In this document: positions 18,592-48,759 of the stretch, in pieces | How the letters are laid out: each line of letters begins with the position of its first letter | Numbering within the stretch: position 1 is the first letter of the stretch | Assembly: GCA_944367535.1 (NCBI GenBank) | Contig: CALVWQ010000014.1 | Location: 1-48,759 of the forward strand | Origin: an uncultured Clostridia bacterium | GTDB lineage: Bacteria > Bacillota > Clostridia > Christensenellales > Borkfalkiaceae | DNA length: 48,759 nucleotides | Direction: 5' to 3' | Position numbers and translations under genes: made by a program | The notes under the pieces: generated by a model | What the model was told of the DNA's origin: nothing | What the model saw: the letters and a program-made list of their open reading frames with translations, nothing else | The model's database searches: none

Positions 18592-19335
18592 CTAAATATT
18601 ATTACCAACTGCTAAAAACGCACATTCCGCCATACGTTTGCCGAGCTCCAACTCATTTTCTGCGCTATAATGATAATTATCTATAAGTTTATTTAAGTCA
18701 TCGGTTTTGACGTATTTTACCGCACGAAACCTTTCGGACACATGAATTTTGGCTTCATTTACCTTGTCGGCAAATGGTAAACACGGATTAGAAGGATTAG
18801 TTTGTCCCAAGACAATTACGATTTCTTCGCCATAAAGTAATCTTATTTTTTTTATAAATTCTTCCAGGTTCCTTTCATAACTTTGTGCCTGCTCCGTGTA
18901 TATCGCATCATTTTCTCCCTGCATCCATAAAAAACTTTTTATTCTCGGTTCAAAACCCAACTTAATATAATTTAATAAGCCAGCACTTATAGTATCGTTT
19001 AAGTTTTGAAAATCCTCTCCGCCGTCACCGAAAGCATTCCACCGATCAAAAAGAGACGTTCCGTCCGTTGCATATTTAATCAACCCGAATTTACCCTTGA
19101 CGGAGGCAAAAAACGATGCCGCACCAATTTCCAATCCGAACTTTGTTTTATCGATTCCAAGCCCGTATCTGACCTTTAAAACAGAATCCGCCACATCCGT
19201 ATTAATATTATATCTTTGGTAAATAAGTGTTTTTGACAAAGTTTTATTGTTCTTTTCCGCATCATGCGGCACAGGGCTTATTCCCAACGCGTTTGATTGT
19301 CCGGCGATAACGTAAATATCAATTTTTTTTATCAT
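18592..19335 (-). CDS. CE6/sialate O-acetylesterase-like SGNH esterase
   Basis: 247-aa protein of the sialic-acid esterase/CE6 type (SGNH-like fold). The block I motif AGQSN (nucleophile Ser14), the WMQGEND block and the DNYHYS block with the catalytic His are all present. Such enzymes remove acetyl groups from xylan, pectin or sialic acid. No signal peptide is seen, so it acts on imported oligosaccharides. ATG 19335 has no good ribosome site, so translation may be weak or coupled to the preceding gene 33 bases upstream. It is the last gene of the glycan locus and ends at the bidirectional terminator. Confidence 0.8.
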   Translation of the reverse strand: MIKKIDIYVIAGQSNALGISPVPHDAEKNNKTLSKTLIYQRYNINTDVADSVLKVRYGLGIDKTKFGLEIGAASFFASVKGKFGLIKYATDGTSLFDRWNAFGDGGEDFQNLNDTISAGLLNYIKLGFEPRIKSFLWMQGENDAIYTEQAQSYERNLEEFIKKIRLLYGEEIVIVLGQTNPSNPCLPFADKVNEAKIHVSERFRAVKYVKTDDLNKLIDNYHYSAENELELGKRMAECAFLAVGNNI

Positions 19336-21428: not shown

Positions 21429-21800
21429 TTATTCGCTGTAACCCATCAGACCTATATATGAACAATTTGGCTGAGTGACATCCATTCTCCCAAACTGAAC
21501 CACAACTTCTATATCACTTTTAACTCTTAAAGAGTATTGATACAGTCTTCCAAGCACAACACCTCCTATTTCCTCAGGTTTATCCATTCTGAAACATTTT
21601 ACACGTTTTGCCGGAATAACAAAATTTATATTTTCAATCGGATCTTTGTCTTCAAAATAAAAATCTATATAAACATTTGCGTCTTTATCGTTACAATTCA
21701 GAATTATCAGAGCCTCATGTCCCTCATAACCACTCTCATTGAGGTTCCCTTTTACGGGTATCCAACCGTCTACTATATACCATCTTTTTTTACCGTCCAT
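21429..21800 (-). CDS. ASRT-like (sensory rhodopsin transducer family) protein
   Basis: 123-aa beta-rich protein matching the Anabaena sensory rhodopsin transducer family. Conserved features include the aromatic W.I.DGWIP start, ESGYEGHEALIILNCNDKDA, YFEDKDP, IPAKRVKCFRMD, and a C-terminal VVVQFGRMD region. The family forms tetramers. Homologues occur in many bacteria without rhodopsin, commonly near sugar-use genes, and a carbohydrate-binding role has been proposed. The start ATG 21800 has AGGAGG inside the 3' end of the GH20 gene (11-base overlap), so it is coupled to it. Its place among GH36, GH20 and GH78 genes supports a glycan-related role here. Confidence 0.85.
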   Translation of the reverse strand: MDGKKRWYIVDGWIPVKGNLNESGYEGHEALIILNCNDKDANVYIDFYFEDKDPIENINFVIPAKRVKCFRMDKPEEIGGVVLGRLYQYSLRVKSDIEVVVQFGRMDVTQPNCSYIGLMGYSE

Positions 21801-30598: not shown

Positions 30599-31546
30599 TC
30601 AGGTTTCAACCGTATCATATATCTTCCCTGTAAGCCACTTTGTAAATTCTATCATGGGAAGAGCTATAACTATCAGCATTATACCGAGTGCGGCACTGTA
30701 ATAAAGGCGCCCCTGATTTACTTTCGATATTATCAGATATGCGATAGTATAAGTTTTTCCGTTTCCCGAAGTGAGAACCATGGGGTGAATATACTGAGTA
30801 AATATCGTGGTAACGCCGAAGATTATCATCGTGCTTACCGTAGGCCAAATTATGGGGACGAAAATCTGAAACATCTCGCGGAATATTCCCACTCCGTCCA
30901 ACCTTCCCGACTCTATAACCTCCGTAGGGACTCTCGTCATCGCACCGAATAGCAGAACCACATTATATCCTATCCCCGCCCATATAGCATACAGATATAA
31001 TATCCACATCGCGTACTTTTCGTCGACCAACCAATTGGGTATGTCGTCTTTCGACATCTTGAAAATATTTTCAAGTATCCAATTTATAGGACCAATCGAT
31101 GCGTCAAACATGTTTCTGAACACTATTGCAAGGACAACGATGGATATAATACTCGGCAGGAAAAACAATATTTTGTATAAACCCGAAAGCGGGATTTTTC
31201 TGTAAAGGAAATAACCCGCGAAAATCGAGAGCGGAAGCATGACGCAGACCGTTACGGGCAAATAACCGAAAGAATTTATTACCGCGCGCATCCAAAGGTC
31301 ATTTTCGCCCCATTCGGTGAAAAACTTCTTAAAATTGTCTAACCCCACCCATTTTAAGGTATTTACCTCTGCAGTATAATCAACATCCTGAAACGCCATT
31401 ATGAATGAATCAAAATTGACATATAAGGTAAAAAGCGCAAAATGAAGCATGGGAATTGCAATCATAAGTACTATAAATATTTTATCGCCTTTCCAAAGTT
31501 TATCGCCCGACGGTGTTGAAAGGGTGTGTTTTACTTTTTCTTTCAT
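30599..31546 (-). CDS. Sugar ABC transporter permease (MalF/UgpA-like)
   Basis: 315-aa inner-membrane protein with about six hydrophobic helices. The EAA-type loop that contacts the ATPase is visible as VIESGRLDGVGIFREMFQIFVPII. It belongs to the CUT1 carbohydrate importer family (oligosaccharides). ATG 31546 lies 1 base after the stop of the solute-binding lipoprotein gene, with AGGAAAA as ribosome site, so the two are coupled. Its MalG-like partner is 2.8 kb upstream, separated by two lipoprotein genes, which is unusual. No ATPase gene is present in the window. Confidence 0.9.
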   Translation of the reverse strand: MKEKVKHTLSTPSGDKLWKGDKIFIVLMIAIPMLHFALFTLYVNFDSFIMAFQDVDYTAEVNTLKWVGLDNFKKFFTEWGENDLWMRAVINSFGYLPVTVCVMLPLSIFAGYFLYRKIPLSGLYKILFFLPSIISIVVLAIVFRNMFDASIGPINWILENIFKMSKDDIPNWLVDEKYAMWILYLYAIWAGIGYNVVLLFGAMTRVPTEVIESGRLDGVGIFREMFQIFVPIIWPTVSTMIIFGVTTIFTQYIHPMVLTSGNGKTYTIAYLIISKVNQGRLYYSAALGIMLIVIALPMIEFTKWLTGKIYDTVET

Positions 31547-31547
31547 T

Positions 31548-32912
31548 TTATTTTCCTAATTTATCAAGAGCAAGTTCGTAATCTTTATTAACAAGAAGAG
31601 ATGCTCTTGAAATGCCTTCTGTAAGTGATGACGAATTTTGTAAATAAGTTACACATTGTCCCGCCTCAGCCAACCAGAAGCCTATATCTCCCGACAAATA
31701 AAGAGGATTATTACTATACGGGAAGATATTATACGCAGAATTCCATATTTCCATTACGCTTTCGCCGAAAGCCGACAGATTAGACCAATCGGTTTTTTCA
31801 TATACATAAGGTCTGGGATTGCCGCCCGTTTTTTCCACATACAAATTAAGCATTTCCTGAGTGCTCATGAACAGAAGGAATTCCTTTGCAAGCTCTTTAT
31901 TTGCGGCTTTTGACGGAATTGCGAGGATATCTCCGTTTCCTACGCTGACTGTAAGATCGTTTCCGTTCTTATCTTTACCGTCATCATTTATAGCGGGAGC
32001 GGCAAACATAGCCATCTCAAAATTCGGGAACCCTTCCAAAAATTCCGACATTTCAGTCTGTAACCATGAACCAGTAGGAATCATTGCGGCATTGCCCTGA
32101 ATAAACTCTCTCTGAGCAGCAAGATGGTCGAAACCCTTTGAACCGGAAAGCACTATGTCTTTATTGCAAACTATTTTCGCCACTTGTTCATAGGCAAGTT
32201 TACGACCTTCTTTTTTGAACACATCCGCGCTTTCGAGAGCAAAAAATTCTTCTCCGCTTTCTATCCCCTCATACTGGAACATCCACGACAGCATTATATT
32301 CTGAAAGTATCCTTCGGCGATTCCTCCGCAATATACGATCGGCGCTATACCTTCTGATTTGATTTCGTCGCAAAGCTCGAAAAATTCTTTCATGGTTGTA
32401 GGCACTTCCCAACCGTATTGTTCAAACATCTTTTTATTATAAGCAAAGCCAGTTACCGCACCTTCCCAAGGTATTCCGTAATATTTATCGTTGACCTTTA
32501 CATAATCGGTAAATTGAGGCAGAACGACATCGATAAATTTCTTGCCGTTTTCCACCTCCATTTCGTAGAGGTCGCTTATATCCTCAAGATAACCCTTTCT
32601 GATATAATCATGATAAAATGTCATATTAGTAATAGAAACAATGTCGGCGATTTTATCTGCATTGCCTGCTTCCAGCCTGTTTTTGACCAACTGTTCCATA
32701 TTGGCATGTCCTTCAAGAACGACTTTCACGTCGGGATGAGAGTCCTCAAATGCTTCAGCCGTTTTCACAAGCCATTCATCGCCGAAACCGGCTTTGAAAA
32801 ATGATATTTTTAACTTGATTTTGCCGTCGTCCTCTCTATTACCGCACGCGCCTAATGAAAACATCATTAAAAAAGCCAGAGCCAAACATAAAATTTTTAC
32901 AAATTTTTTCAT
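31548..32912 (-). CDS. Carbohydrate ABC transporter substrate-binding lipoprotein
   Basis: 454-aa cluster-1 solute-binding protein (MalE-like). The signal peptide ends in a lipobox LGAC (Cys23). The fold-typical regions include KISFFKAGFGDEW near the N-terminus, the hinge-region WEGAVTGFAYNKKMFEQYGWEVPTT, and GNAAMIPTGSW. It captures oligosaccharides outside the membrane for the two permeases on either side. ATG 32912 has a perfect AAGGAGGT. The preceding TIM-barrel lipoprotein gene ends 11 bases upstream. Confidence 0.93.
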   Translation of the reverse strand: MKKFVKILCLALAFLMMFSLGACGNREDDGKIKLKISFFKAGFGDEWLVKTAEAFEDSHPDVKVVLEGHANMEQLVKNRLEAGNADKIADIVSITNMTFYHDYIRKGYLEDISDLYEMEVENGKKFIDVVLPQFTDYVKVNDKYYGIPWEGAVTGFAYNKKMFEQYGWEVPTTMKEFFELCDEIKSEGIAPIVYCGGIAEGYFQNIMLSWMFQYEGIESGEEFFALESADVFKKEGRKLAYEQVAKIVCNKDIVLSGSKGFDHLAAQREFIQGNAAMIPTGSWLQTEMSEFLEGFPNFEMAMFAAPAINDDGKDKNGNDLTVSVGNGDILAIPSKAANKELAKEFLLFMSTQEMLNLYVEKTGGNPRPYVYEKTDWSNLSAFGESVMEIWNSAYNIFPYSNNPLYLSGDIGFWLAEAGQCVTYLQNSSSLTEGISRASLLVNKDYELALDKLGK

Positions 32913-32923
32913 ATATTACCTCC

Positions 32924-34312
32924 TTATAACGGAATTATAAATTGTCCCTCGCCTGAACCGAGTTTTGTGGTCAATACGCCCTTATTTAAAGCATATCTGA
33001 CCATTCTGCCCTTTTTATAAACAATGACTTCTTTTGCGTCATTGAATTTTAACTCTATTGTTATGGTTTCGTCATCCGCGGGATCTGCCATATTTGTCAG
33101 CATATACCCTTTATATCCGTCGGCATTTGTAAAATACCCGAGCAACGCATCCCCGTCGCCCTTAATCGAACTGATTCCGTCTATAGGATTTTCTGCGTTA
33201 TCGTAAGCGAGTACGGAAGAGTTTAATCCTTCAAACTGGTAATTCTGATAATCGCTGTCCGCCGTATAACAAACGGTATTCTGCCAATCGAAATCCATAT
33301 AGACGCTTTCGAACGCTTTTATTTCAGAGATTAACTGCTGCATCGAATACCATGTCTGAGTCCTGTTGCCGTACCAATCTATAAGACCGTATGTTATATT
33401 TTCTCCCGTTCCCATGGTCGTCCAATAGGTAAATGTTTCTATTCCTTTTGCGCCGTATGCCATTGAATTGTAAACCTGCCATGCAAGGTCATCATAATTT
33501 TTGGGAGTCCTGTAATTCCAGTGTCCCATAGTCAATATAAACATGTAGAAAGGAATATTATATTCTTTCGCTTTTACCGCGGCTTTTTCAAAATTCGCAA
33601 TGTACCCTATGCCGAGGTCGGGATTTCCCGAAGTGTCATATGTCAGAGGATATCTGTCATAACTCAACATTTCAGGCTGAACTTTCTGCAAAAACTGTTC
33701 GAGATAATCATTATAGGTTTCAGCGCCCAACTGCCCTGCCGACGTATCCGGCAAAAGGTTTACAAAATACTCTTTATCAGGCAAATACTCCTCATAAAAT
33801 TCCTTGACTTTTGCTATATTATCAAAAAGCGCCGCGCTCGGTTCGTCGTAAATAATATGACCTGCAAAAGCGGGATGGTCTTTATACAAATCGACTCTTG
33901 CCTTAATTTCCGACTTCTGTTCATCGGTTATATTTTCAATGTTTGTGCCAGAAGCTATAAGACTGCCGAACGACGCCCCTTTGCCATTATCTCGCGCCAT
34001 ATATTTTATGCCATACTTCTCACACAAGTCGAGGACGGTAATAATATCCTCTATTTCAAATTCATAAACGGCATAAGCATAGTTAAATCCGCACTCCGCT
34101 ATCCATTTATATTGCTCATCCGTTATATAATTAGGATTATTTTTTAAAATGTCGCTCCCAACATTCGCCTGCGGCGGAGTCATATAAGCAGCAAACCTGA
34201 ATTCATCTTCCGACCCGATTTGAGGCAGTTCCGAAGATGTTTTATATTTTGTACATCCGCTTACTGAAAACGCAATTACCGCAACAAGCAATATCGACAA
34301 TAATTTTCTCAT
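32924..34312 (-). CDS. TIM-barrel glycoside-hydrolase-like lipoprotein, unassigned family
   Basis: 462-aa lipoprotein with lipobox SVSGC (Cys20). The mature part looks like an (alpha/beta)8 barrel: GFNYAYAVYEFE, HPAFAGHIIYDEPSA with a probable catalytic Glu, LSYDRYPL, and a later ETFTYWTT strand with Glu. A C-terminal beta-sandwich-like region follows from about residue 370. This resembles clan-A glycoside hydrolases, but I cannot assign a CAZy family. It lies between the two permease genes and before the solute-binding protein. Its job is probably to bind or trim glycan at the cell surface before uptake. ATG 34312 has AAGGAG. Confidence 0.65.
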   Translation of the reverse strand: MRKLLSILLVAVIAFSVSGCTKYKTSSELPQIGSEDEFRFAAYMTPPQANVGSDILKNNPNYITDEQYKWIAECGFNYAYAVYEFEIEDIITVLDLCEKYGIKYMARDNGKGASFGSLIASGTNIENITDEQKSEIKARVDLYKDHPAFAGHIIYDEPSAALFDNIAKVKEFYEEYLPDKEYFVNLLPDTSAGQLGAETYNDYLEQFLQKVQPEMLSYDRYPLTYDTSGNPDLGIGYIANFEKAAVKAKEYNIPFYMFILTMGHWNYRTPKNYDDLAWQVYNSMAYGAKGIETFTYWTTMGTGENITYGLIDWYGNRTQTWYSMQQLISEIKAFESVYMDFDWQNTVCYTADSDYQNYQFEGLNSSVLAYDNAENPIDGISSIKGDGDALLGYFTNADGYKGYMLTNMADPADDETITIELKFNDAKEVIVYKKGRMVRYALNKGVLTTKLGSGEGQFIIPL

Positions 34313-34359: not shown

Positions 34360-35193
34360 TTATCCTTTTAATCCTCCGGCAACGGTATTTTCCATTATCG
34401 TTTTCTGAAAACATGCGAATAAGACTAAAAGAGGTATAATGGATATAACCATCGCTGCAAACATCTGCGTATATGCACCGGTGGTTGTAGCTTGAGTAGA
34501 CAAATCCTGCAAACCGGTTGCTAAAGTATACATTGACGGCAAATACAAAAACGGTGTATAATAATCGTTCCAAACTCCAATCATAACCATAAATCCGACA
34601 GCACCAATACCGGCTCTCGCCTGCGGCAACATGATTCGGAAAAATACCGTGAAATTACCTGCCCCGTCAATCTTCGCAGCCTCGGCATAACTCCAGGAAA
34701 TACCTTTGAAAAATGAATACAATAATAAAAATGTAGAACCGAAAGGTCCCATATACAACACAAGAAGACCGGGAAGGCTGTCAACCAATCCGAGATTGTT
34801 CATAAGTTTATATGTCGCCGCAATATTTCCGAGATTGGGAATAACCATAAAGATTATCGCCATTGTATAAATCAGGCTGCTTCCCCAAAACTTATACTTA
34901 CTCAACACATAAGCCATGATAGATGCAGACATGATTGAAAGAAATGTGCCGCATGCTGTCAGAAATATCGTGTTGAAAAACATATTAAGCAAATTATTTT
35001 CTTCAAACGCCTCTATATAATTATCGAAATTGAATTTTTTAGGCAATGACCACACATCGCTTATGAATTCGGCATTTGTTTTAAAAGAATTATTCAGTGT
35101 ATACAAAAACGGGAAAACCAGAGTAATCGCATAAATACCGAATAAAACCGAAACAATGATAAATAATGTTTTGGTCCCTTTACTCAACCGCAT
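34360..35193 (-). CDS. Sugar ABC transporter permease (MalG/UgpE-like)
   Basis: 277-aa permease with six hydrophobic helices. The EAA loop is YAEAAKIDGAGNFTVFFRIMLPQARAG. It pairs with the MalF-like permease at 30599-31546. ATG 35193 is chosen because GGAGGAGG lies 9 bases upstream and homologues begin here; a longer frame to 35262 runs through the preceding gene. The gene overlaps that preceding gene by 14 bases. It ends in GGLKG, a typical C-terminus for CUT1 permeases. Confidence 0.92.
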   Translation of the reverse strand: MRLSKGTKTLFIIVSVLFGIYAITLVFPFLYTLNNSFKTNAEFISDVWSLPKKFNFDNYIEAFEENNLLNMFFNTIFLTACGTFLSIMSASIMAYVLSKYKFWGSSLIYTMAIIFMVIPNLGNIAATYKLMNNLGLVDSLPGLLVLYMGPFGSTFLLLYSFFKGISWSYAEAAKIDGAGNFTVFFRIMLPQARAGIGAVGFMVMIGVWNDYYTPFLYLPSMYTLATGLQDLSTQATTTGAYTQMFAAMVISIIPLLVLFACFQKTIMENTVAGGLKG

Positions 35194-37177
35194 TATTACA
35201 AACCTCCTCCACCTCGTCGACACATACTCCTCTCGGCGGCACCCTGTCCGTAAATTTTTCATCGTTTACGGGAACTTTATATCCGTGATATTTCAATTTC
35301 GATACAGTATTTTTTATTTTTTTATTATGAGTTACGGTTACCAAATTATATTTATAAGCATCATTACTTATAATATATCTGTATTTACCGTTTGAAAGCC
35401 TGAATGCGCTTAAATGTGCATTGTCGGAACACTCTGCGAGATTTGCCGCTTTTGAAATTATTTTTGCGGCACACCTGAAATATTCTTCGGGAAGAGTGTT
35501 ATATTTTAGCGGGCAGGTCCATATACCGCCCATATCGTCCTCCACACCCTTTGCCATCTTAACCTTTGCAAAGGACAAGAGTTTTTCGGCATCTTCTTCG
35601 ATACCCTCATAGGGTTTTACGTTAACAAGTACAAAATCGTAAACCGCACTTATTCTGTAACCGTCGACGTCCTGCGTCTTTTTCCCTACGACTACGAGCG
35701 GCGCCTTTATTTTTTTAACAATGTTTTTCTCTTGTTCGGAAAGGAAATCGTAATCGGTGACGAGAACGGGAGTTGAAATATTAAGAACATTTTCGAAATC
35801 AGTCATGCTCCCTATATCAAGCCCGCCCATTAAAAGCCTAAGATTAAGTTCCGAAGACGAATAATCTTTTGTAAGAACATAATTCTTTATTTCTTCTTTC
35901 AAAGACGACCGAGAATAAAGCACCGTATATCCGAGAGCCTTTTCAACATCTCCCGTATCCGTTCCATCCACGTTACTGTTCAGCCAATCCCAATCGTTTT
36001 TCGGAACCGCGGAACTAAGACAGAAAAACGGCGCGCTTATACATTTTTTCAGCCCGTTCCTGTATATAAACGCGTGGTTTCTTCTTACGAGCGCGCGTTG
36101 AAGTTCCATCGGACTGTGCCTTATAATATCCCATTGCTCGGCAGTATCCCTGACAGGTGTCAGTGCAACTAATTTTGTATCCGGTGAATTTATTTTATTG
36201 CTCAACTGCATGAGGTAATGTTTGTAATGATACATCGCGCAGTCTTTTTCAGTACTGTCATAGCCTGCATTATCTTCTTTCGAGAGTATAGGACGAGTAG
36301 GAGAAACTTCTTCTACCATCATCGCATAAGCTTTTTCACTCTTAACGGCGTTATAATCGAAACCGTATCTGTAATATGATTCGAAGGGGTCGCATGTCCA
36401 AGCGTTATTGAAAATTATAATGCCGTTTATCACCTCGAAAGCGCGCCTGTAATATTCCGCCCATCTACCTGTAAGGTAATCGAGATACTCTGCATAATAT
36501 TTTTCAATGATGATTTTTCGGCGAGCCGCGTAATCCCGTTTTCCGTGAGTTACCGCCTTTAATTCTTTTATTCCCTTTTCGGTTACGAAACGTCCTGCCA
36601 AATCGTCAGAAAAATCCCCGTTCATGACGCTGAGTCTTGCGGTAGATATACCGTCTGCAAGATGCACGCCGTCAAAACCGTAGTCTTTAATTACTTCGTT
36701 TATTTTTGCAAAAAGATATTCGCTGTAAGGCGTGCCGTCGCTTAAATTCTTTAAGACATTGACTCCGTAAACTTCCTCACCGTTACGATATCTGTCCCAT
36801 ATTTCATGATGATTATTGCAAAACTCACCTATCATGAATTTGCCGTCGTCAGATTGATAAGTGAATGTATTAAAAAATGAAAATAAAACTTTGACGCCGT
36901 GTCTTTTCAATTCCTCGGTCAAGCCTTTGAGTTCGGTATCTTTCCAAGGTTGACGCGGACGTTCCTCGCCGTAAGGCAATCCGCCGTATGAACATACGGA
37001 CGGCGAAAGCGTCTTGCCCGTTATCCCATCATGCAGATTTACAAAATCAAGGTCGGCAAAAAGGAAACTGACTCCTTCCGCCTTACCGCTTGTCCTTGAC
37101 ATAAAATCTCCGACTCCATAGTCTTCTGCCGTCCTGTCAAAACCCGTAAGTTCAATCCAATACCAATATCCTTCCAT
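35180..37177 (-). CDS. Putative TIM-barrel carbohydrate-active protein, family not recognised
   Basis: 665-aa cytoplasmic protein without signal peptide. The N-terminal 300 residues read like a barrel: FLFADLDFVNLHDG, HGVKVLFSFFNTFTYQ, DYGFDGVHLADGIS, and FNNAWTCDP strand ends. After about residue 430 there is an alpha/beta part, and a beta-sandwich-like C-terminus with LSNGKYRYIISND. I cannot name the family, so glycosidase function is inferred from architecture and context. ATG 37177 has AAGGAT upstream. It overlaps the permease gene and follows the M24 gene by a 158-base spacer with palindromes. Confidence 0.55.
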   Translation of the reverse strand: MEGYWYWIELTGFDRTAEDYGVGDFMSRTSGKAEGVSFLFADLDFVNLHDGITGKTLSPSVCSYGGLPYGEERPRQPWKDTELKGLTEELKRHGVKVLFSFFNTFTYQSDDGKFMIGEFCNNHHEIWDRYRNGEEVYGVNVLKNLSDGTPYSEYLFAKINEVIKDYGFDGVHLADGISTARLSVMNGDFSDDLAGRFVTEKGIKELKAVTHGKRDYAARRKIIIEKYYAEYLDYLTGRWAEYYRRAFEVINGIIIFNNAWTCDPFESYYRYGFDYNAVKSEKAYAMMVEEVSPTRPILSKEDNAGYDSTEKDCAMYHYKHYLMQLSNKINSPDTKLVALTPVRDTAEQWDIIRHSPMELQRALVRRNHAFIYRNGLKKCISAPFFCLSSAVPKNDWDWLNSNVDGTDTGDVEKALGYTVLYSRSSLKEEIKNYVLTKDYSSSELNLRLLMGGLDIGSMTDFENVLNISTPVLVTDYDFLSEQEKNIVKKIKAPLVVVGKKTQDVDGYRISAVYDFVLVNVKPYEGIEEDAEKLLSFAKVKMAKGVEDDMGGIWTCPLKYNTLPEEYFRCAAKIISKAANLAECSDNAHLSAFRLSNGKYRYIISNDAYKYNLVTVTHNKKIKNTVSKLKYHGYKVPVNDEKFTDRVPPRGVCVDEVEEVCNNAVE

Positions 37178-37335: not shown

Positions 37336-38526
37336 TTAGCGAAATATTTCGGGTATCGCCTTATCGTTATATGTCGTCATTCTTTCCGCACCCTGCGGTT
37401 TTATGAGATAGCAATCTTCGATACGAAAACTACCCCATTCCATTCCCTTAAAGTAAGCGTCGATGCAAATTGCCATATTTTCCTTAATTATTCTCTTATT
37501 TTCGGTAGAAAATACCGGCGCTTCGCATTCAAGCATTCCAGTGCTGTGCAGACTGCCGTACGGACAATAATCAATATAACCGTATTTCGTTAAATAATCG
37601 GTGTATGCGTTAAGGACAATATCGCAAGGCGTACCGGGTTTCATCTTTGCCGATGCAAAATTGAGTGCATCGTAAGCACACATTACGGCGTCCTTAATTT
37701 TCTGAGGAATCTCGCCTAAAACATAAGGCGTACACGTAATTCCGTTATATCCCTCATAGCATACGCCTGCCGCAAGGTTGAGTATTTCACTCTTTTTAAT
37801 TTTCCGCATAGTATTTCTATACATGCTTATAAAAGAATTTTTCTCACCGGTCGCCACCATTGGAGCAAAAGCCTGCACATAACTTTCCGCACCGAGAGAA
37901 AGCATCTTATACTCAAACATGGCCTGAATCTGCAATTCTGTCATTCCCTCTTCTATTCTCGGAACAACGTCTTTGAACAATTCTGAAACCATTTCCCAGT
38001 TCGTCTTTAAACATTCAATTTCGGCAGGACTCTTTATAATTCTCTGCTCATAATGCAACAGGTCAAAATCTATAATTTCCGCACCGTCAAATGCCGCTTT
38101 GATTTTATTGTATATTACCGCGGGGAAAATAAGTTTTCCGATAAGTCCGACCTTTTTTATGGTATATTTATTTTTAAGTTCGTTAAAGCAGTCCAGAAAA
38201 TCCATTTGTCCCGCCATATCGTACTCAAACCCGCTGACCTCTCCTATTTCTGGAAATACCATTATTTTCGCCGATGAAAGTTTATTCTTAACCTGCGCAT
38301 AGTCATAAGAAGCCTGTCCGCTGCACAGTATGCTCTCACCGTCCCTGACCTTAATAAATGCCGCACTTTCGTTTACTGCCGCAAAATCGGTATAATACCT
38401 TACCGACGAAGGGTCGAGAAGATTTGAGAACGCTACGACAAGGTCAACGCCGTTTTCTGACATCACGGAATTTAAAGTTTTTACTCTTTCTTCAAATTCG
38501 TTGGCTGATATTGTGGGATAATTCAT
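37336..38526 (-). CDS. Creatinase-like M24 family protein without the metal-binding Asp pair
   Basis: 396-aa protein with an N-terminal creatinase-type domain (about 1-150) and a pita-bread catalytic domain. In metallo-aminopeptidases the domain has DLG and SDITRT, each with a metal Asp. Here the same places read NLA and NGITCT, so both Asp are lost. The His usually at HE.P is Cys (ECEAP). The first His (GSLHSTG) and the Glu of RIEDCYLI remain. This resembles metal-independent creatinase, which cleaves a C-N bond, rather than an aminopeptidase. ATG 38526 has AGGAGG. It follows the isomerase-family gene by 9 bases. Confidence 0.85.
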   Translation of the reverse strand: MNYPTISANEFEERVKTLNSVMSENGVDLVVAFSNLLDPSSVRYYTDFAAVNESAAFIKVRDGESILCSGQASYDYAQVKNKLSSAKIMVFPEIGEVSGFEYDMAGQMDFLDCFNELKNKYTIKKVGLIGKLIFPAVIYNKIKAAFDGAEIIDFDLLHYEQRIIKSPAEIECLKTNWEMVSELFKDVVPRIEEGMTELQIQAMFEYKMLSLGAESYVQAFAPMVATGEKNSFISMYRNTMRKIKKSEILNLAAGVCYEGYNGITCTPYVLGEIPQKIKDAVMCAYDALNFASAKMKPGTPCDIVLNAYTDYLTKYGYIDYCPYGSLHSTGMLECEAPVFSTENKRIIKENMAICIDAYFKGMEWGSFRIEDCYLIKPQGAERMTTYNDKAIPEIFR

Positions 38527-38535
38527 AATTTCCTC

Positions 38536-40002
38536 CTATTTGACAAATAAACTTTTTACTTTAAGATATTCTGCTACGAGTCTTATTTCTTCGCTCACGT
38601 CCCCGAAGCCCATCATGACGTGATGCGAAACTCCCGCATTTAAGAGTTCCTCTAAATATTCTTTGACGGGTTTATCAACTTTTACAAGCGCATGTATTTC
38701 ATCAAAGTTCAGTCTCGGGAAATCTATACTGTACACCGGCGAAGATAAAATTCTGTATCCTTCCGCTGTCTCAAAAATATGCGACAGCGTGCAATTCCCT
38801 TCCCTGCATACAAATTCATAATTTAGTCCGTTTCCGTCAAAACCCCATTCCTCGGGAGTACGCGCAAGAAGAACTTCTTTTTCGCTCTTTGACATATCGG
38901 GAGTGCCGATGCCGTGTCCTATTAACAGAACACTGTTAGTCTGCTCGTCGTATTCTCCCCATTCTGCCATGAGAGGATTTTTGCCCGTCAGAGATTTTAA
39001 CAGCATCTCTGCTACAAGTCCTCCGAAATCCCCCTCGCAGTTCACGCACATATCCGTGTTTTCCATAAGAAGAGACGCCCCTATTCTTGCAGACGCTTTT
39101 ACCTGTCTTTGCACGAAGTGCTGGTCTAAAAAGCACATGGCGTCCAGATTGAATTTCTCGGATATTCGCTCCATCGCTATTGCAAGTTTAAGAGCATTAA
39201 AGACGTCTGTTTCGGTAACGTTTTTAATCTTAAAACGGGAAAGCAGTTTCTTTTTCTTCTCGTTAACGGCATCATCCGTAATTTTTTCCCATTCTTCCAA
39301 AAGATGCGCGCTCTGTATCATGATTATATTGACGCCGAACGCGGATTTTAAAAAGGTTTTTGAAAGTTCTATATCGTACATGCCCCTAAACACATGGCCT
39401 ATAACACCGATATTGGCTTCCCTTATGTCCTCAATTGCCTGCAATGCCTTAAAATGCGAGGCTATTTTTTTATATGCCCTTTCATCTTCCACACTGCCCA
39501 CAATTACGTTGTAATCGCGTTTCATTTTTCTCAACGTACCGGTTATCTGAGCTATACCGATAATCGCACTGTTGCGAAGACTGCCTTCATAGTCTCCGTT
39601 TCTGTCTACGTCTTTATGCGGCTGAGTAGAAAAAATCAAGAGAGGTTTATCCCTTACGCAGTCCAGAGCAGTAAGTGTTATGAAATCCGCAGTATATGTC
39701 CCGTAAACGAGCAAAACCACGTCAACGTTTTCGTTTTTAAGCATTTTACCTGCCGCCATTGCCGAATCGAGAGTGTCAACCATCCCCGTAAAAACAATAT
39801 TTTCGTACTCGGCAGAGAGTCTGTCCGTAACTACTTTAAGGTCTGAATCCACCTTGTCTTTAAGCGTCGGATACATTCTCCAATACTCGAAATACCCGCA
39901 GGTGAGCACGCCTATTTTTATTTTCTTCTTTACTTTCCCTCCGGTGAGTATATCACCGCAGACTTTGGCTCCTTCTTCAAACGATTTTATTGTCGGCGTC
40001 AT
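38536..40002 (-). CDS. L-fucose/L-arabinose isomerase family protein
   Basis: 488-aa protein of the fucose/arabinose isomerase superfamily. N-terminal parts (IGVLTCGYFEYWRMYPTL, VVLLVYGTYTAD) form the substrate-binding domains. The C-terminal metal region has CEGD (322-325), Glu in AEWGEYDE, and the His of LIGHGIGTP (His363), matching isomerase metal ligands. It is neither a canonical AraA nor FucI, so the sugar is unknown. ATG 40002 is preferred to a TTG at 40014, because the latter lies directly on the AAAGGAG ribosome site. The gene lies 1 base after the amidohydrolase stop. It is the probable aldose-ketose step of the five-gene module. Confidence 0.85.
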   Translation of the reverse strand: MTPTIKSFEEGAKVCGDILTGGKVKKKIKIGVLTCGYFEYWRMYPTLKDKVDSDLKVVTDRLSAEYENIVFTGMVDTLDSAMAAGKMLKNENVDVVLLVYGTYTADFITLTALDCVRDKPLLIFSTQPHKDVDRNGDYEGSLRNSAIIGIAQITGTLRKMKRDYNVIVGSVEDERAYKKIASHFKALQAIEDIREANIGVIGHVFRGMYDIELSKTFLKSAFGVNIIMIQSAHLLEEWEKITDDAVNEKKKKLLSRFKIKNVTETDVFNALKLAIAMERISEKFNLDAMCFLDQHFVQRQVKASARIGASLLMENTDMCVNCEGDFGGLVAEMLLKSLTGKNPLMAEWGEYDEQTNSVLLIGHGIGTPDMSKSEKEVLLARTPEEWGFDGNGLNYEFVCREGNCTLSHIFETAEGYRILSSPVYSIDFPRLNFDEIHALVKVDKPVKEYLEELLNAGVSHHVMMGFGDVSEEIRLVAEYLKVKSLFVK

Positions 40003-40003
40003 T

Positions 40004-40831
40004 TTATAAGTCAACTCCTTTTGCCTTTTTTATATTTTTAAAGATTCTTTCGGCGTTACCGCGGAAAATCAGTTCTTTTTTATCGTCCGATATATGCGCG
40101 CAAAGCACGCTACCGATACAGTAATTGAATTCGTACCACGGGAAATCGGTTCCGAACAATACTTTTTCCGCGCCTACATTTTCACACATCTTATCGACTA
40201 TTCCGCTATGACGGTGTATGTCGCAGAGGTCAAGATATGCATTATCGTGTTTTTTTACCAGTTCAATCGCATCATCTAACTGATTGGGAGAAGAATGTCC
40301 CAATATAAATTGCAAATTTTTATATTTTTTTAATAGTTCCGCGACCTCGGCGGGCGAACATGCTGTCCCGCCCCAAGTATGCGAGAGCACCACGAGATTT
40401 CTTTTTTCGGCAAAATCCAAAGCATATTTGTATCTGTCGTCGGCAAGCGAAACATTATGATAAACCGGTAAGAATTTAAACCCTATATAGTTGTCGATTT
40501 CGTCAACCCGCTCTATTCTTTTAATATACCTTTCGCAATAATTGGGATTAAACGAAAAATATCCTTTTACTCTTTCAGGGTATTTCGCCATATACTCTTC
40601 TATATAGCGGTTAGGTTCATCCACATCAAAAAGGTCATAGTGTGGTGCACACCAGATGCTATCTATGTTTCTCTCATCCATAACCCCTACGCATTCGTCT
40701 ATTTCAAACACAGGCGTCGAAGCGTCATTTATATCACCCATGTGCGTATGAACGTCTATAACACTTACCTTTTCAAGTCTTCCCGCTTCGGTAAAATTTT
40801 TCCACAATGCGGAATCGTTAGTATATTTCAT
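40004..40831 (-). CDS. Amidohydrolase-2 family metal-dependent hydrolase (intact ligands)
   Basis: 275-aa TIM-barrel hydrolase of the amidohydrolase-related (PF04909-type) family. The metal residues are all there: DVHTH (HxH) near residue 27, a Lys/His region at GFKFLPVYHN, His in LSHTWGG, His in LGHSSP, and Asp in FGTDFPW. The family includes lactonases and decarboxylases for sugar or aromatic acids. The gene overlaps the stop of the preceding amidohydrolase gene (ATGA), so the two are coupled and may form a heteromeric enzyme with it. The stop is followed at once by the isomerase gene. Confidence 0.85.
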   Translation of the reverse strand: MKYTNDSALWKNFTEAGRLEKVSVIDVHTHMGDINDASTPVFEIDECVGVMDERNIDSIWCAPHYDLFDVDEPNRYIEEYMAKYPERVKGYFSFNPNYCERYIKRIERVDEIDNYIGFKFLPVYHNVSLADDRYKYALDFAEKRNLVVLSHTWGGTACSPAEVAELLKKYKNLQFILGHSSPNQLDDAIELVKKHDNAYLDLCDIHRHSGIVDKMCENVGAEKVLFGTDFPWYEFNYCIGSVLCAHISDDKKELIFRGNAERIFKNIKKAKGVDL

Positions 40832-41616
40832 TTAAGTAACCTGCCTTCAAATAGCCTTTCAATATTACCATGCGCGATATTTTCCTTATCCCTTAACGGA
40901 ATTTTACTTCCGATAAGAGTTGCCAGCGGCCCTCCCATGTTATCCATGGGATAGTTGGTACCGAAAAGCATCTTTTCGCTTCCGAATCTGTTTACAAAAG
41001 CCTCTATTCCCGTTACTTCCTGAAAGTCGCTTGTATCTATATAGAGATTTTTATATGCTTTAACAAGCGGATATACATATCCGTCCGAGCCCCATAAACC
41101 GTAGTTGGTGATTATGGCGGTCAATGAAGGAAACTCTTTCATGATAGCGTAAACATATTCCCAGCCGTCAGACGGAGAAATATATATCGGTATATTCTTC
41201 TCGCACAGCATATCCGCCACGTCGCCCATCGTTATTCTGTCAAACATATAACGGTTGGCTTTCGGATTTGCCCTAACGCCGAAAAGGTTATATCTGCATA
41301 TCATATCGTAAATATTTTCAGGCAGAAAACTTTCATGCAGAAACGATGGCGCTACCGCTATCGTCCCATGAAGTCTGCCGGTGTAATTTACAGGGTCGGA
41401 TACAAGTCTATTATTGCCGTGCACAAGTCCCGAATTAACAATGGTAGCATTATAAACAACCGCTTCGTCTATACCGTTATAGTCCATTTCGGCGAGAAGT
41501 TCCGCCGCATCTTTGGGCTGCTTCACCTTTTCGTATACGGGATAATTTTCGTGATTTATTATAAGTCTGTTCACGGGTGCCTCGCCTATACAGGCACTGC
41601 AATCTATAAACTTCAT
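40828..41616 (-). CDS. Amidohydrolase-2 family protein with degenerate metal site
   Basis: 262-aa protein clearly related to the neighbouring amidohydrolase by overall layout (GIDEAVVYNATI, LFGVRANPK, KMLFGTNYPMDN). The HxH motif is replaced by the string DCSA, the mid-barrel His residues are missing, and the final Asp has become Asn (FGTNYP). It probably lacks metal-dependent activity and may be a structural or regulatory partner of its neighbour. ATG 41616 has AAGGAG. Its stop overlaps the next start. Confidence 0.8.
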   Translation of the reverse strand: MKFIDCSACIGEAPVNRLIINHENYPVYEKVKQPKDAAELLAEMDYNGIDEAVVYNATIVNSGLVHGNNRLVSDPVNYTGRLHGTIAVAPSFLHESFLPENIYDMICRYNLFGVRANPKANRYMFDRITMGDVADMLCEKNIPIYISPSDGWEYVYAIMKEFPSLTAIITNYGLWGSDGYVYPLVKAYKNLYIDTSDFQEVTGIEAFVNRFGSEKMLFGTNYPMDNMGGPLATLIGSKIPLRDKENIAHGNIERLFEGRLLK

Positions 41617-41636
41617 GTATTCTCCTTTTAAGAAAT

Positions 41637-42656
41637 TTATCTGTCGAAAAATTCTGCGGGATTACCCTCAGTGAGTCTAATGACCTGCTCATCGCTTAAA
41701 CCGACGTCTTTTAACATTACCGTTATATTTTGCGGAACATGCGCAAATCCGTTTCCGCCGTAATTATAAAGCATGCTTTTAAGACATATATCGGTGGTTA
41801 CGAATATCCTGTTTATATAACCCGCATCTGCGAAATTTTTAATTGATAAACATCTTTCGTAATCGTACGCAAACCTGCCGCGTAAAACACCCGTATCGCG
41901 TTTGGGAATAAAAAATTCCTTACCGAAATTATCGTACTCGACATAAACACCTTTATCGAGAAGACGCTTTATATAATCGGGTCTTATACAAACGTCTATA
42001 TGGTCTATACATATTTTTTCGGGTTTAACCCCCATCTCTATCAGTTTATCAGTTATAGCTATCCCGTTTTCTTCCCATAACGCCGTATGAAAATGAATGG
42101 CAGCTCCCGTCTTTAATGAGGCAAGCCCTGACGCAATAACATTCTTCCATTCACACTCGGTTATTACGGCACTCGTTCCTATCTCTCCTATAAACCCTGC
42201 TTTTATGCCGCTGTCCCCAAAACCCTCGGTCAGTTCTTTGACCATTTTATCGGCTATTTCTTCCGCCGAAGCATCCCTGTTCCATTTATCAAGAAATGCG
42301 TCAACATAATATCCGCAACCGAGTACTATATTAACTCCTGATTTTTCACTGATGCGTTTCAAGGCGGCAGGATCGGCAAAAAACGTTGTACAGTCAAAAA
42401 TGGTATTCCCTCCCGCTTCTTTATAAAATTCAAGTTCTTTAACCGCTATTACTTCATCGTTATAAAAAGCGTTGTCCTCTATTGTATAGGGATCGGAATA
42501 AATGGCATGACGGTTTTCAAGTTTCAGTTTTTCATGAAAGTATTTCCCCACACCGTTCTCGGCAAGCATGGGACGAAGATCGCAAAGAATATGTTCGTGC
42601 GGAAGCGCAAAACCGACGTCTTTTTTTTCTATTTTTCTCGTTACAGTTTCAATCAT
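41637..42656 (-). CDS. Phosphotriesterase-family (PTE) hydrolase
   Basis: 339-aa TIM-barrel metal hydrolase of the PTE family. HEH (His20 and His22) is near the N-terminus, and a Glu in GFIGEIGTS takes the place of the carboxylysine, as in the E. coli PHP subgroup. Further ligands are the His in IHFHTA, the His in CIDHID and the Asp in FVTTDIC. Related enzymes hydrolyse lactones or phospho-sugar lactones. ATG 42656 is chosen because GGTGA lies 8 bases before it; a GTG at 42665 is too close to that site. It is the first gene of the module, behind the regulated promoter in the intergenic region. Confidence 0.85.
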   Translation of the reverse strand: MIETVTRKIEKKDVGFALPHEHILCDLRPMLAENGVGKYFHEKLKLENRHAIYSDPYTIEDNAFYNDEVIAVKELEFYKEAGGNTIFDCTTFFADPAALKRISEKSGVNIVLGCGYYVDAFLDKWNRDASAEEIADKMVKELTEGFGDSGIKAGFIGEIGTSAVITECEWKNVIASGLASLKTGAAIHFHTALWEENGIAITDKLIEMGVKPEKICIDHIDVCIRPDYIKRLLDKGVYVEYDNFGKEFFIPKRDTGVLRGRFAYDYERCLSIKNFADAGYINRIFVTTDICLKSMLYNYGGNGFAHVPQNITVMLKDVGLSDEQVIRLTEGNPAEFFDR

Positions 42657-42688
42657 CTTTTTCACCGATATATTTTTTTATTTATTTT

Positions 42689-42717
42689 ATCACACCGATA
42701 TTGTGCCCGCAAGACAA
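42689..42717 (-). promoter_or_regulatory. Probable promoter of the catabolic module
   Basis: On the minus strand TTGTCT (42717-42712), 17 bases, TGTGAT (42694-42689), matching the consensus in 4/6 at each hexamer. It lies about 35 bases before the PTE-family gene and overlaps an inverted repeat (42698-42720), as expected of a regulated promoter. Confidence 0.45.
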
Positions 42718-42720
42718 TAT
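42698..42720. promoter_or_regulatory. Inverted repeat, candidate operator (ATATTGT-N9-ACAATAT)
   Basis: ATATTGT (42698-42704) and ACAATAT (42714-42720) form a perfect 7-bp inverted repeat with 9 bases between. It lies in the divergent spacer between the AraC regulator gene and the catabolic module, overlapping the module's promoter. AraC-type regulators usually bind direct repeats, so it may also serve another factor. Confidence 0.5.
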
Positions 42721-42763
42721 TATGTTTTATTGAGTAATAAATTATGCTTTTTCTTTTTTTACT

Positions 42764-42791
42764 TGACAAAAAAGCACATAGCTGATATGAT
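42764..42791 (+). promoter_or_regulatory. Sigma-A promoter of the AraC gene
   Basis: TTGACA (42764-42769), 16 bases, TATGAT (42786-42791). The expected transcript start (about 42797-42799) falls on the ATG itself, so the mRNA would be leaderless. Confidence 0.65.
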
Positions 42792-42797
42792 ATTGAT

Positions 42798-43682
42798 ATG
42801 AGAAAGTATATAAAACATTCCATTAAGGATACCGTTTTAATTAGGAAAATTCTGGCAATTGATTTGTTCGAATGGGAGTCTGATTACGTTTCAAAGGAAG
42901 AGAATCATGATTTCTGGGAGTTTATTTTCGTCGAGAAGGGCGAATTATGTTACGAGATAGAAAACAAAAAACCCGTTTTGTTAAAAAAAGGCGATATTTT
43001 CTTTCTCTCTCCCAAACAAAATCATGTCATAAGGGCATCTAAAAAAAATCAATCGTCAAAAACTTTTTTCGTCTGCTTTGAATGTAAGTCTTTTATAATT
43101 AACGTTCTCGCCGAGTTTTCCAAACACACAGACGAAAACGACAAGAGATTTCTCTCTTTCCTCATAGATGAGGCGCTTAATACATTTAAGACTTCCTCTT
43201 TTGAAAAACTGACGCCGCTTGAACATCCGAGGCTGGGCGGCGAACAATGTGTTCAGCTATACCTCGAACTGCTTATCATAAATCTTTTGCGAGAACAATC
43301 CGAAAATTCTAATCCTACGATTTTTTTCAAATCCGACGACAACATTCGGGTTATATGCGAAAGAATTTATTTCATGCTTAAAAAAAATATATACAGCTCC
43401 CTCACCATTGACGATATATGCAAGACTTTCAATTACAGCCGCTCCTATATCAGTCATTCATTTAAAACATATTATAATAAATCCATAATAACATGTTTTA
43501 ATGAGTTGAAAATCGAAGAGGCGAAAAAACTGCTGATACGTAACGATATAAGTATTGCCAAAATTTCTGATAAACTTAACTTTTCAGATTTTCATCTTTT
43601 CAACTATACATTTAGAAAATATACCGGAATGTCCCCCTCGGAATACCGAAGTTCTTTTTTCTCTCAATTAAACGAAGAATAA
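42798..43682 (+). CDS. AraC-family transcriptional regulator
   Basis: 294-aa regulator with an N-terminal cupin-like sensing domain (NHDFWEFIFVEKGELCYEI, then LLKKGDIFFLSPKQNH) and a C-terminal pair of helix-turn-helix motifs (about residues 190-290). The latter includes LTIDDICKTFNYSRSYISHSFK and the closing YTGMSPSEYR. Such regulators sense a sugar and activate catabolic genes. It is divergent to the module starting at 42656 and shares its intergenic region. ATG 42798 has no Shine-Dalgarno and lies 7 bases after the -10 box. The 3' end is followed by a stem-loop shared with the convergent DUF4838 gene. Confidence 0.92.
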   Translation: MRKYIKHSIKDTVLIRKILAIDLFEWESDYVSKEENHDFWEFIFVEKGELCYEIENKKPVLLKKGDIFFLSPKQNHVIRASKKNQSSKTFFVCFECKSFIINVLAEFSKHTDENDKRFLSFLIDEALNTFKTSSFEKLTPLEHPRLGGEQCVQLYLELLIINLLREQSENSNPTIFFKSDDNIRVICERIYFMLKKNIYSSLTIDDICKTFNYSRSYISHSFKTYYNKSIITCFNELKIEEAKKLLIRNDISIAKISDKLNFSDFHLFNYTFRKYTGMSPSEYRSSFFSQLNEE

Positions 43683-45696: not shown

Positions 45697-45716
45697 AAAA
45701 TTTTTCTTATTTATTA

Positions 45717-47780: not shown

Positions 47781-47793
47781 ATTTTTCCTCCTT

Positions 47794-48759
47794 TCAGCGC
47801 ACGTTGAACGTAAATTCAATCACGTTATAATTCCCCGAAGAGTCAAATGCACAATATAATATTCTGTAATAACCTTCTCTGTCAAATTTATAAACATCTC
47901 CTCCGGAGAATTTTTCGTAGGTATAATCGGGATTACAAATAAGAATATATGAATTTATTGCTTCTACGGAATCGATATTGTCAGTTACACTCATTCCAGC
48001 GAGCGTGATTTCCGAACCAAACGCATATTCCTCATCATATTCCCCGTCAACAGTTATTTCGGGTGCGATATTATCTATAACCGTAATATAATACTGTATT
48101 TTGTTTGTTACACCGTTTAAATCCTCGACGTTGAACGCAAGCAAATATGTCCCGAGTTTATCAAGTTTGAAAATCCTGCTTTCATTGCAGTCGGCTTCGG
48201 AAAGCAATACGGTCTTGTCGGGCGCAGTAAACGAAACGCTTATAGTTGAAATTCCGCAGATAATATCCGTCGCAAAAGCCGAAGGAACGATAAAATCGGA
48301 ATAAACTACGATATTTTCGGACTCAATATTGCTTATCGGTGCAAGTTGCGGCGCAATGAGATCCCCGTATGAAATCGCGTTCACGTCAAGAGGTTGGTTG
48401 CCGAGTTTAAGAAGAGTTATGTCCGAACGCTCCTTCACATTGCAAAATCTGAATGAAACGTTCATTACTCCGCGCGTAAATCCCGTAAATATCGAGCCGT
48501 CCGTACAATATTCGAGTTCCGCTATTTTGACAAGGTTTAAATTATATATACTATGGTCGGAATTATCGTAATAAAAATGTTTCCTCTCTGCAGCGGCGAC
48601 AGAACTCGACAAACCGTATTTAAGAGTATCGAATGTGCCGTTTTTATCCTGTACACGGAAGTTTTCGGTGAGTGTGGCGTTATTGTAAACACGGAACACG
48701 ACACTGTTTGCGGCATCGAAACTGTCGGTAAGGGTAACTTCCAGATATTCGTATTTAAC
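47794..48759 (-). CDS. Large secreted Ig-domain protein, C-terminal part (cut by window end)
   Basis: The reading frame is open to the right edge of the window (322 codons seen). The C-terminal 110 residues form a bacterial Ig-like domain of the DUF5011/HYR type, with DNIAPEITVDGEYDEEY and AGMSVTDNI. The remaining part has beta-rich, secreted-protein character. The gene ends 13 bases before the exported DUF4838 gene, so both are probably in one transcript. No C-terminal sorting signal is seen. The true start lies outside the window; the in-frame GTG at 48699 is internal. Confidence 0.75.
   Translation of the reverse strand, partial: VKYEYLEVTLTDSFDAANSVVFRVYNNATLTENFRVQDKNGTFDTLKYGLSSSVAAAERKHFYYDNSDHSIYNLNLVKIAELEYCTDGSIFTGFTRGVMNVSFRFCNVKERSDITLLKLGNQPLDVNAISYGDLIAPQLAPISNIESENIVVYSDFIVPSAFATDIICGISTISVSFTAPDKTVLLSEADCNESRIFKLDKLGTYLLAFNVEDLNGVTNKIQYYITVIDNIAPEITVDGEYDEEYAFGSEITLAGMSVTDNIDSVEAINSYILICNPDYTYEKFSGGDVYKFDREGYYRILYCAFDSSGNYNVIEFTFNVR

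Follow-up and report, generated by a model that had tools for sequence, protein, structure and literature searches.

The stretch of DNA analysed here, referred to throughout as the window, comprises 48,759 nucleotides of contig CALVWQ010000014.1 from an uncultured Clostridia bacterium of the family Borkfalkiaceae (assembly GCA_944367535.1), and carries on its minus strand a tightly packed unit of five genes in the order PTE-AH2a-AH2b-ISO-M24, as follows.

41637..42665, minus strand: PTE, a PTE-family hydrolase and the first gene of the unit (PF02126, 164.6 bits)
40828..41616, minus strand: AH2a, an amidohydrolase-2 homologue (PF04909, 34.5 bits; the Amidohydro_2 Pfam cut-off is 26.4 bits)
40004..40831, minus strand: AH2b, an amidohydrolase-2 protein (PF04909, 75.7 bits)
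38536..40014, minus strand: ISO, an AraA/FucI-superfamily isomerase (alignment to AraA; best NCBIfam match SftI)
37336..38526, minus strand: M24, a creatinase/prolidase-fold protein (Pfam, residue counts, structural model and fold comparison)

The source names of these proteins are L-arabinose isomerase, Xaa-Pro aminopeptidase, hypothetical protein or similar. PTE and AH2a are separated by 20 bp and ISO and M24 by 9 bp, AH2a and AH2b overlap by 4 bp, and AH2b and ISO overlap by 11 bp or, if ISO uses a later start, lie 1 bp apart; the start of ISO is likely 4 codons downstream of the start of its open reading frame (ORF), the database copy P0001 being 488 residues long. An earlier reading of the window (the sequence-only reading) had described five packed genes of these families, and both the families, by Pfam or for ISO by a structure match to AraA, and the measured gaps and overlaps agree with it. 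The interval that it gave for the module, 38526-42720, holds only four of the five genes that it correctly listed, with M24 running from 38526 down to 37336.

Conservation of the unit was assessed around ISO, for which a profile built from 17 homologues retrieved 70 loci in genome contigs; 68 of these were counted after two without an ISO ORF (L071 and L072) were dropped. The full set of PTE, AH2a, AH2b, ISO and M24 was found in the same order, on one strand and within 5.3-6.0 kb, at 21 of the 68 loci, comprising four labelled Clostridia, Clostridiales or Firmicutes (L003, L004, L006 and L007) and 17 from Paenibacillaceae; among the 46 loci having at least 5 kb upstream and at least 2.5 kb downstream, the unit was complete in 19. 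Identity of the Paenibacillaceae proteins to those of the window was approximately 41-45% for PTE, 38-45% for AH2a, 41-46% for AH2b and, in the best segment, 36-41% for ISO, and M24 identity was 22-26% in Paenibacillaceae versus 64-66% in the four loci labelled Clostridia, Clostridiales or Firmicutes. The five genes are a real conserved gene unit, and their packing is not due to chance, since the gene order is conserved elsewhere. The gene-neighbourhood check proposed in the sequence-only reading thus finds its five families together, and all five proteins score below cut-off against every named NCBIfam family, so that neither of the two outcomes set to refute that reading came about. The unit is rare and scattered, with AH2a in five of 398 genomes of the phylum (the window's own genome included) and ISO in one of 61 relatives, 37 of them belonging to the genus, that one being the own genome. 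No description of the unit was found in the open-licence literature on the unit, on its single families or on rhamnose.

Clustering of neighbouring ORFs identified GHL and ASRT as travelling companions of the unit, together with ABC permeases in the Paenibacillaceae loci; a usual order in Paenibacillus is PTE-AH2a-AH2b-ISO-M24-ASRT-ABC-ABC-GHL. The corresponding and neighbouring features of the window are as follows.

42798..43682, plus strand: AraC-type regulator, divergent from the unit (NCBIfam and Pfam-type scans)
42666..42797, no strand: PTE/AraC intergenic region, searched for operator and promoter sites
35180..37177, minus strand: GHL, a glycoside hydrolase (GH)-like protein (fold comparison; co-occurrence with ISO loci)
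34360..35262, minus strand: ABC permease (PF00528)
32924..34312, minus strand: lipoprotein, judged by visual inspection of its signal and lipobox (no match in the Pfam scan)
31548..32912, minus strand: sugar-type solute-binding lipoprotein (PF01547, 109.9 bits; 56% identical relative in L005)
30599..31546, minus strand: ABC permease (PF00528; 55% identical relative in L005)
21429..21800, minus strand: ASRT-family protein (PF07100, 113.2 bits, cut-off 25)
18592..19335, minus strand: SASA-family carbohydrate O-acetylesterase (PF03629, 101.1 bits)

GHL was present at 28 of the 68 ISO loci and ASRT homologues lie directly behind M24 in many relatives, so the five-gene module of the sequence-only reading stands as a conserved unit that is often wider than five genes. 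The window's ASRT gene is separate from the unit and adjoins a GH20 gene; ASRT proteins have been proposed as sugar sensors with neighbouring sugar isomerase, aldolase and kinase genes, according to PMC2739507, and the window ASRT is a probable sugar-responsive regulator. The solute-binding protein and the permease with relatives in L005 are matched there in a Spirochaetaceae locus, and no ABC match was found in the locus DNA examined for L003, L004, L006 and L007. GHL has no signal peptide by eye and a full-length fold like that of GH42, its barrel being closest to Cwp19 and the C-terminal part of PgaB; GH42 and other barrels are near ties for GHL, which is therefore described only as GH-like. 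PgaB, which combines a NodB-type deacetylase with a GH153 domain, and Cwp19 share only approximately 9-13% identity with GHL and differ from it in signal peptide and GH42-like build. A likeness to PgaB is that, in Lentisphaerota, genes for NodB and GHL occur at the same loci. The lipoprotein at 32924..34312 shows partial identity of 22-29% to a GH42-like protein of some Paenibacillus copies (L041 and L047). The recurrence of GHL, and of ABC permeases in Paenibacillaceae and L005, fits a sugar derivative that would be taken up and set free by glycosidases, in keeping with the earlier proposal.

The surroundings of the unit, from approximately 18.6 to 47.8 kb of the window, consist mainly of glycan-use genes (SASA esterase, GH78-like, GH20, melibiase-type and two DUF4838 proteins), and below 18.5 kb all ten of the genes that were scanned have general functions, such as those for an EngA-type GTPase, glycerol-3-phosphate acyltransferase and RNase J. 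The two DUF4838 / GH67-N-like proteins are neighbours at 43765-47819, upstream of the AraC gene, and two large proteins of 973 and 633 residues without a Pfam match lie at 25566-28487 and 28658-30559 in the glycan-use region, the former having a relative in L005 at 35% identity. No clear step was seen in GC content as a sign of transfer. The AraC gene is divergent from the unit as previously described, but the candidate operator reported with it was not borne out, as the intergenic search found a single 9-nucleotide direct repeat, CACCGATAT, at 42663 and 42693. Promoter-like sites on the plus strand at 42763-42791 (11/12 positions) and on the minus strand at 42769-42741 (10/12) are among the better ones over 28.4-45.9 kb, a region in which such sites show no excess (50 found versus 48.3 +/- 7.5 expected from shuffles).

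Conservation of metal-site residues was counted across the aligned loci, excluding genes that were broken, that spanned less than approximately 80% of their window counterpart, or that were on the opposite strand or over 7 kb away from ISO (PTE: L063, L070; AH2a: L067, L015, L070; AH2b: L015, L020, L070; ISO: L015, L070; M24: L016, L061, L015, L070). The dinuclear site of PTE is complete, with H23, H25, E161, H193, H222 and D292 present in 25 of 25 rows, as is the HxH, H, H, D site of AH2b, with H28, H30, H151, H179 and D229 in 26 of 26. In ISO, the positions aligned to the metal-binding residues of AraA are likewise retained (E327 in 67/67 rows, E351 in 66/67, H367 in 67/67 and H465 in 66/67). 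Conversely, AH2a has no histidine at the four counted metal positions in any of 25 rows, the third position being 148/149 by eye, and its fifth position is Asn in 13, Asp in nine and Glu in three. M24 lacks both aspartate ligands in all 41 rows (A252 and I263 in the window), while H327, E335, D356 and E370 are invariant, H327 and E370 being kept ligands and D356 occupying the other glutamate ligand position. Thus, of the five proteins, PTE, AH2b and ISO keep their metal ligands, and AH2a and M24 are probably not ordinary hydrolases, because the four histidines and both aspartates, respectively, have been lost; judged by its residues, AH2a probably partners AH2b and is itself either non-catalytic or re-purposed. 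Tandem amidohydrolase-2 pairs, one member without an intact HxH and one with it, were also seen outside the module at L080 9145-10685, L081 8146-9706 and L082 8307-9943, the L081 pair adjoining genes for Glucosamine_iso, Amidohydro_1 and two SIS proteins and the L080 pair a DegT-family aminotransferase gene.

The nearest solved sequence to PTE is 9efa, a phosphotriesterase-related protein (E 8.1e-44), which we take to be PTER, an N-acetyltaurine amidase. The PTER N-acetyltaurine hydrolase, as described in PMC11374699, resembles PTE in its metal ligands, including the bridging glutamate, and differs in that PTE sits in a bacterial operon. The ISO family profile matches an L-arabinose isomerase structure (E 3.4e-9), but ISO scores below the cut-off of Pfam Fucose_iso_C (18.5 versus 29.3 bits) and of the AraA NCBIfam NF002795 (42.7 versus 622 bits), its best NCBIfam match being SftI (NF048012) at 97.5 bits, or 128.3 bits for a Paenibacillus copy, versus a cut-off of 700. 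M24 matches Peptidase_M24 (106.1 bits) and Creatinase_N (29.9 bits) and has a creatinase fold, as indicated by fold comparison and a model with a predicted local distance difference test score (pLDDT) of 90.6; it is 17-20% identical to creatinase and the ectoine hydrolase EutD/DoeA, and no gene fusions were found among the 120 listed of its 1097 homologues (358-423 residues).

The genes accompanying ISO fall into two types across the 68 loci, counted anywhere in the locus and with Pfam applied to cluster representatives. In Lentisphaerota and relatives, ISO, M24, ASRT and GHL are accompanied not by PTE/AH2 genes but by NodB (PF01522/PF10096, polysaccharide deacetylase/DUF2334) and PIG-L (PF02585) deacetylases, here termed an alternative head of the unit. 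At least one of PTE, AH2a and AH2b was present in 30 loci and NodB or PIG-L in 22, both occurring together in only two (L020 and L034). The core genes accompany either head, with M24, ASRT and GHL in 25, 14 and 19 of the 30 PTE/AH2 loci and in 15, nine and eight of the 20 loci with NodB/PIG-L only, versus four, one and one of the 18 loci with neither. Residues of the alternative head are also retained: of 19 NodB rows, at least 90% have D12/D13 and H78/H82, and all 17 PIG-L rows have H11, D13, D14 and H117. A possible explanation is that the two heads are two ways to one job, the removal of acyl groups. SASA esterases recur in the window, L003 and L007, and one is fused to ISO in P0023, a direct link of O-deacetylation with isomerisation; SGNH/GDSL esterases form two clusters in nine and five loci, with single ones in L042 and L044. 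P0023 is a protein of 728 residues in which a SASA-type acetylesterase domain (precomputed Pfam) is N-terminal to an ISO homologue approximately 67% identical to that of the window. In a further Clostridia locus (L064 7492-11425), the order is M24-ASRT-creatininase-family gene-ISO, with a GH106-like gene behind. The sequence-only reading had suggested a lactone or a C-N or C-O linked sugar derivative as the substrate; that other phyla have NodB/PIG-L deacetylases in place of PTE/AH2 speaks for the removal of acyl groups over lactones.

Evidence bearing on the sugar itself comes from ISO loci in other phyla and from the remainder of the window's own genome, which is 94% complete. RhaT cluster genes were found in all four Bacteroidota ISO loci (L057, L058, L059 and L069; the representative from L058 scores 451.5 bits, cut-off 468), a GH78 cluster, also represented by L058, in three of these four and in L055, and GH106 in L059; a GH78-like gene is also present in the window. 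These Bacteroidota loci each carry two ISO paralogues, at 24-25% and 33-35% identity to the window ISO. The own genome encodes a probable rhamnulokinase just under its cut-off (517.5 versus 527.95 bits) and a class II aldolase-domain protein below every named cut-off, and shows no match to RhaA (PF06134; control matches in 3/14 genomes) or RhaI (TIGR02635; 5/14). The rhamnulokinase gene (G000 C33:6411-7772) adjoins, by eye, a likely tyrosyl-tRNA synthetase gene. The earlier statement that no kinase is included holds for the module, with a rhamnulokinase-like kinase present elsewhere in the genome. Within the genus, the rhamnulokinase RhaB was found in 30 of 41 genomes, together with RhaA in 26 and without it in four, the own genome included, which is modest evidence for a deoxyhexose. 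L-rhamnose catabolism by RhaA/RhaI, RhaB and RhaD/RhaE, as set out in PMC3870299, is similar in that an aldose-ketose isomerase feeds a rhamnulokinase, as well as in the proximity of rhamnosidase genes and RhaT to ISO in Bacteroidota. It differs in that ISO belongs to the AraA/FucI superfamily rather than to RhaA/RhaI, and in that the unit has no kinase or aldolase but has extra hydrolases and two members without metal sites.

Taken together, these observations are tentatively interpreted, at well below even confidence, as a module that breaks down an acylated sugar, the sugar probably being a 6-deoxyhexose of the rhamnose type; the head of the module would strip acyl or similar groups from it, and ISO would isomerise it. 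A rhamnose-type sugar is our first choice because of the rhamnulokinase without a RhaA/RhaI match and the Bacteroidota ISO loci with RhaT and rhamnosidases, and N-acyl amino sugars are the main rival. Under the proposed scheme, a small glycoside with acyl groups would enter through the ABC system and be cleaved by GHL, and PTE and the AH2a/AH2b pair would strip acyl or similar substituents, AH2a serving AH2b as a partner or as a subunit that holds the substrate. Any C-N or similar bond still left may be cleaved by M24, although it lacks the usual pair of metals, ISO would turn the freed aldose into a ketose, standing in for the missing RhaA or RhaI, and ASRT would sense the sugar; the ketose could then enter metabolism via the rhamnulokinase-like kinase and class II aldolase of the genome.

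Several observations weigh against this interpretation, in which the substrate and activities are predictions. The Bacteroidota RhaT loci show none of PTE, AH2 and M24, and the sugar that they handle may therefore differ from the one processed by the complete module. Many genomes of the genus have rhamnulokinase (30/41) versus ISO in one of the 37 genus members searched, three genomes of the same genus (G402, G414 and G415) have rhamnulokinase without RhaA or ISO, and RhaA may be missing from the own genome by chance given its completeness. The own-genome aldolase scores only 73.5 bits against RhaD (cut-off 170), and the genome encodes a second, distant ISO-superfamily protein (L002 1111-2544, contig C24), 22% identical over ISO residues 153-358. 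The exclusion between PTE/AH2 and NodB/PIG-L (Fisher p 5.6e-5) overstates the independence of the loci, which are not independent because the head types follow the ISO tree, with three changes each under a midpoint root. Finally, where PTER has R204 and R233, the PTE of the window has L196 and V225, as judged by position offset (chain positions R211/R240, via an offset of 7 fixed on E169). Since these arginines are substrate contacts, according to PMC11374699, N-acetyltaurine itself is unlikely to be the PTE substrate.

The main rival, a possibility that we regard as real though doubtful, is that the module degrades an N-acyl amino sugar, with PTE/AH2 or NodB/PIG-L as N-deacylases, GHL cleaving the deacetylated glycoside, ISO isomerising the amino sugar and M24 cleaving its C-N bond. 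NodB, PIG-L, the GH20 of the window and the GHL fold fit an amino sugar equally well, which further tempers the preference for a deoxyhexose, and an amino sugar also accords with 9efa, presumably PTER, as the nearest solved relative of PTE, with the GH20C, Glucosamine_iso and Amidohydro_1 proteins of L005 and with the AH2 pair of genome G341 that adjoins Glucosamine_iso, Amidohydro_1 and SIS genes. Nonetheless, no Glucosamine_iso match was found in the own genome (control matches in 9/14 genomes). A linkage of the NagA/NagB type is not general, NagB-type matches occurring only in L005, L062 and, approximately 8 kb away, L017. A more specific proposal, which seems improbable as a whole, is an undescribed route that degrades N-acylated 3- or 4-amino-6-deoxysugars from the surface glycans of bacteria, in which a two-part amidohydrolase, composed of metal-free AH2a and active AH2b, would free the sugar together with a PTER-like amidase, the AraA-fold enzyme would be a third kind of 6-deoxyhexose isomerase and the metal-site-less M24 would remove the amine, with Lentisphaerota and relatives running the same core with NodB and PIG-L.

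It also appears rather unlikely that, as the sequence-only reading suggested, PTE and AH2b are lactonases of an oxidative sugar-acid route; ISO would then act on another sugar next to it in the glycan. Sugar lactonases are known among AH2 proteins, and phospho-furanose lactonases belong to the PTE family (PTE matches NCBIfam PhFuoseLconase at 55.3 bits versus a cut-off of 630). PMC3870299 reports a route for non-phosphorylated rhamnose breakdown that includes a lactonase. However, no sugar dehydrogenase was found among the conserved neighbour clusters scanned, a subset of all clusters, and in a sparse test two Gfo/Idh queries matched ORFs in eight of 70 loci. In addition, NodB and PIG-L, which occupy the same place, are not known to act on lactones. 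A sulfoquinovose-like pathway, suggested by SftI as the nearest named isomerase of ISO, which is likewise predicted to isomerise an unphosphorylated sugar, is very improbable given ISO scores far below the SftI cut-off and PTER arginine positions that are not kept in PTE. In the sulfoquinovose route, SftI is followed by a transaldolase, according to PMC11659671, and no transaldolase (SftT, PF00923) match was found in a search of the own genome (control matches in 10/14 genomes). The sulfoquinovose route was rejected on the ISO score and this missing transaldolase. Least credible is that the five genes lie together by accident and have nothing to do with one another. Their families are large and promiscuous, and AH2a/AH2b-like pairs also occur where no other gene of the unit adjoins them, but 21 of 68 loci, from two distant Bacillota groups, repeat the order on a single strand, which already contradicts such an arrangement.

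The conserved order of these genes in distant bacteria says that differently named proteins form one pathway. If the interpretation as a module for an acylated, rhamnose-type sugar is true, it would define a class of sugars that these bacteria use by a route not yet described. An amidohydrolase partner lacking its metals and an M24 enzyme lacking its metal site would each gain a role, and deoxyhexose catabolism would gain a further type of isomerase; the named Paenibacillus and Cohnella carriers make this reading testable.

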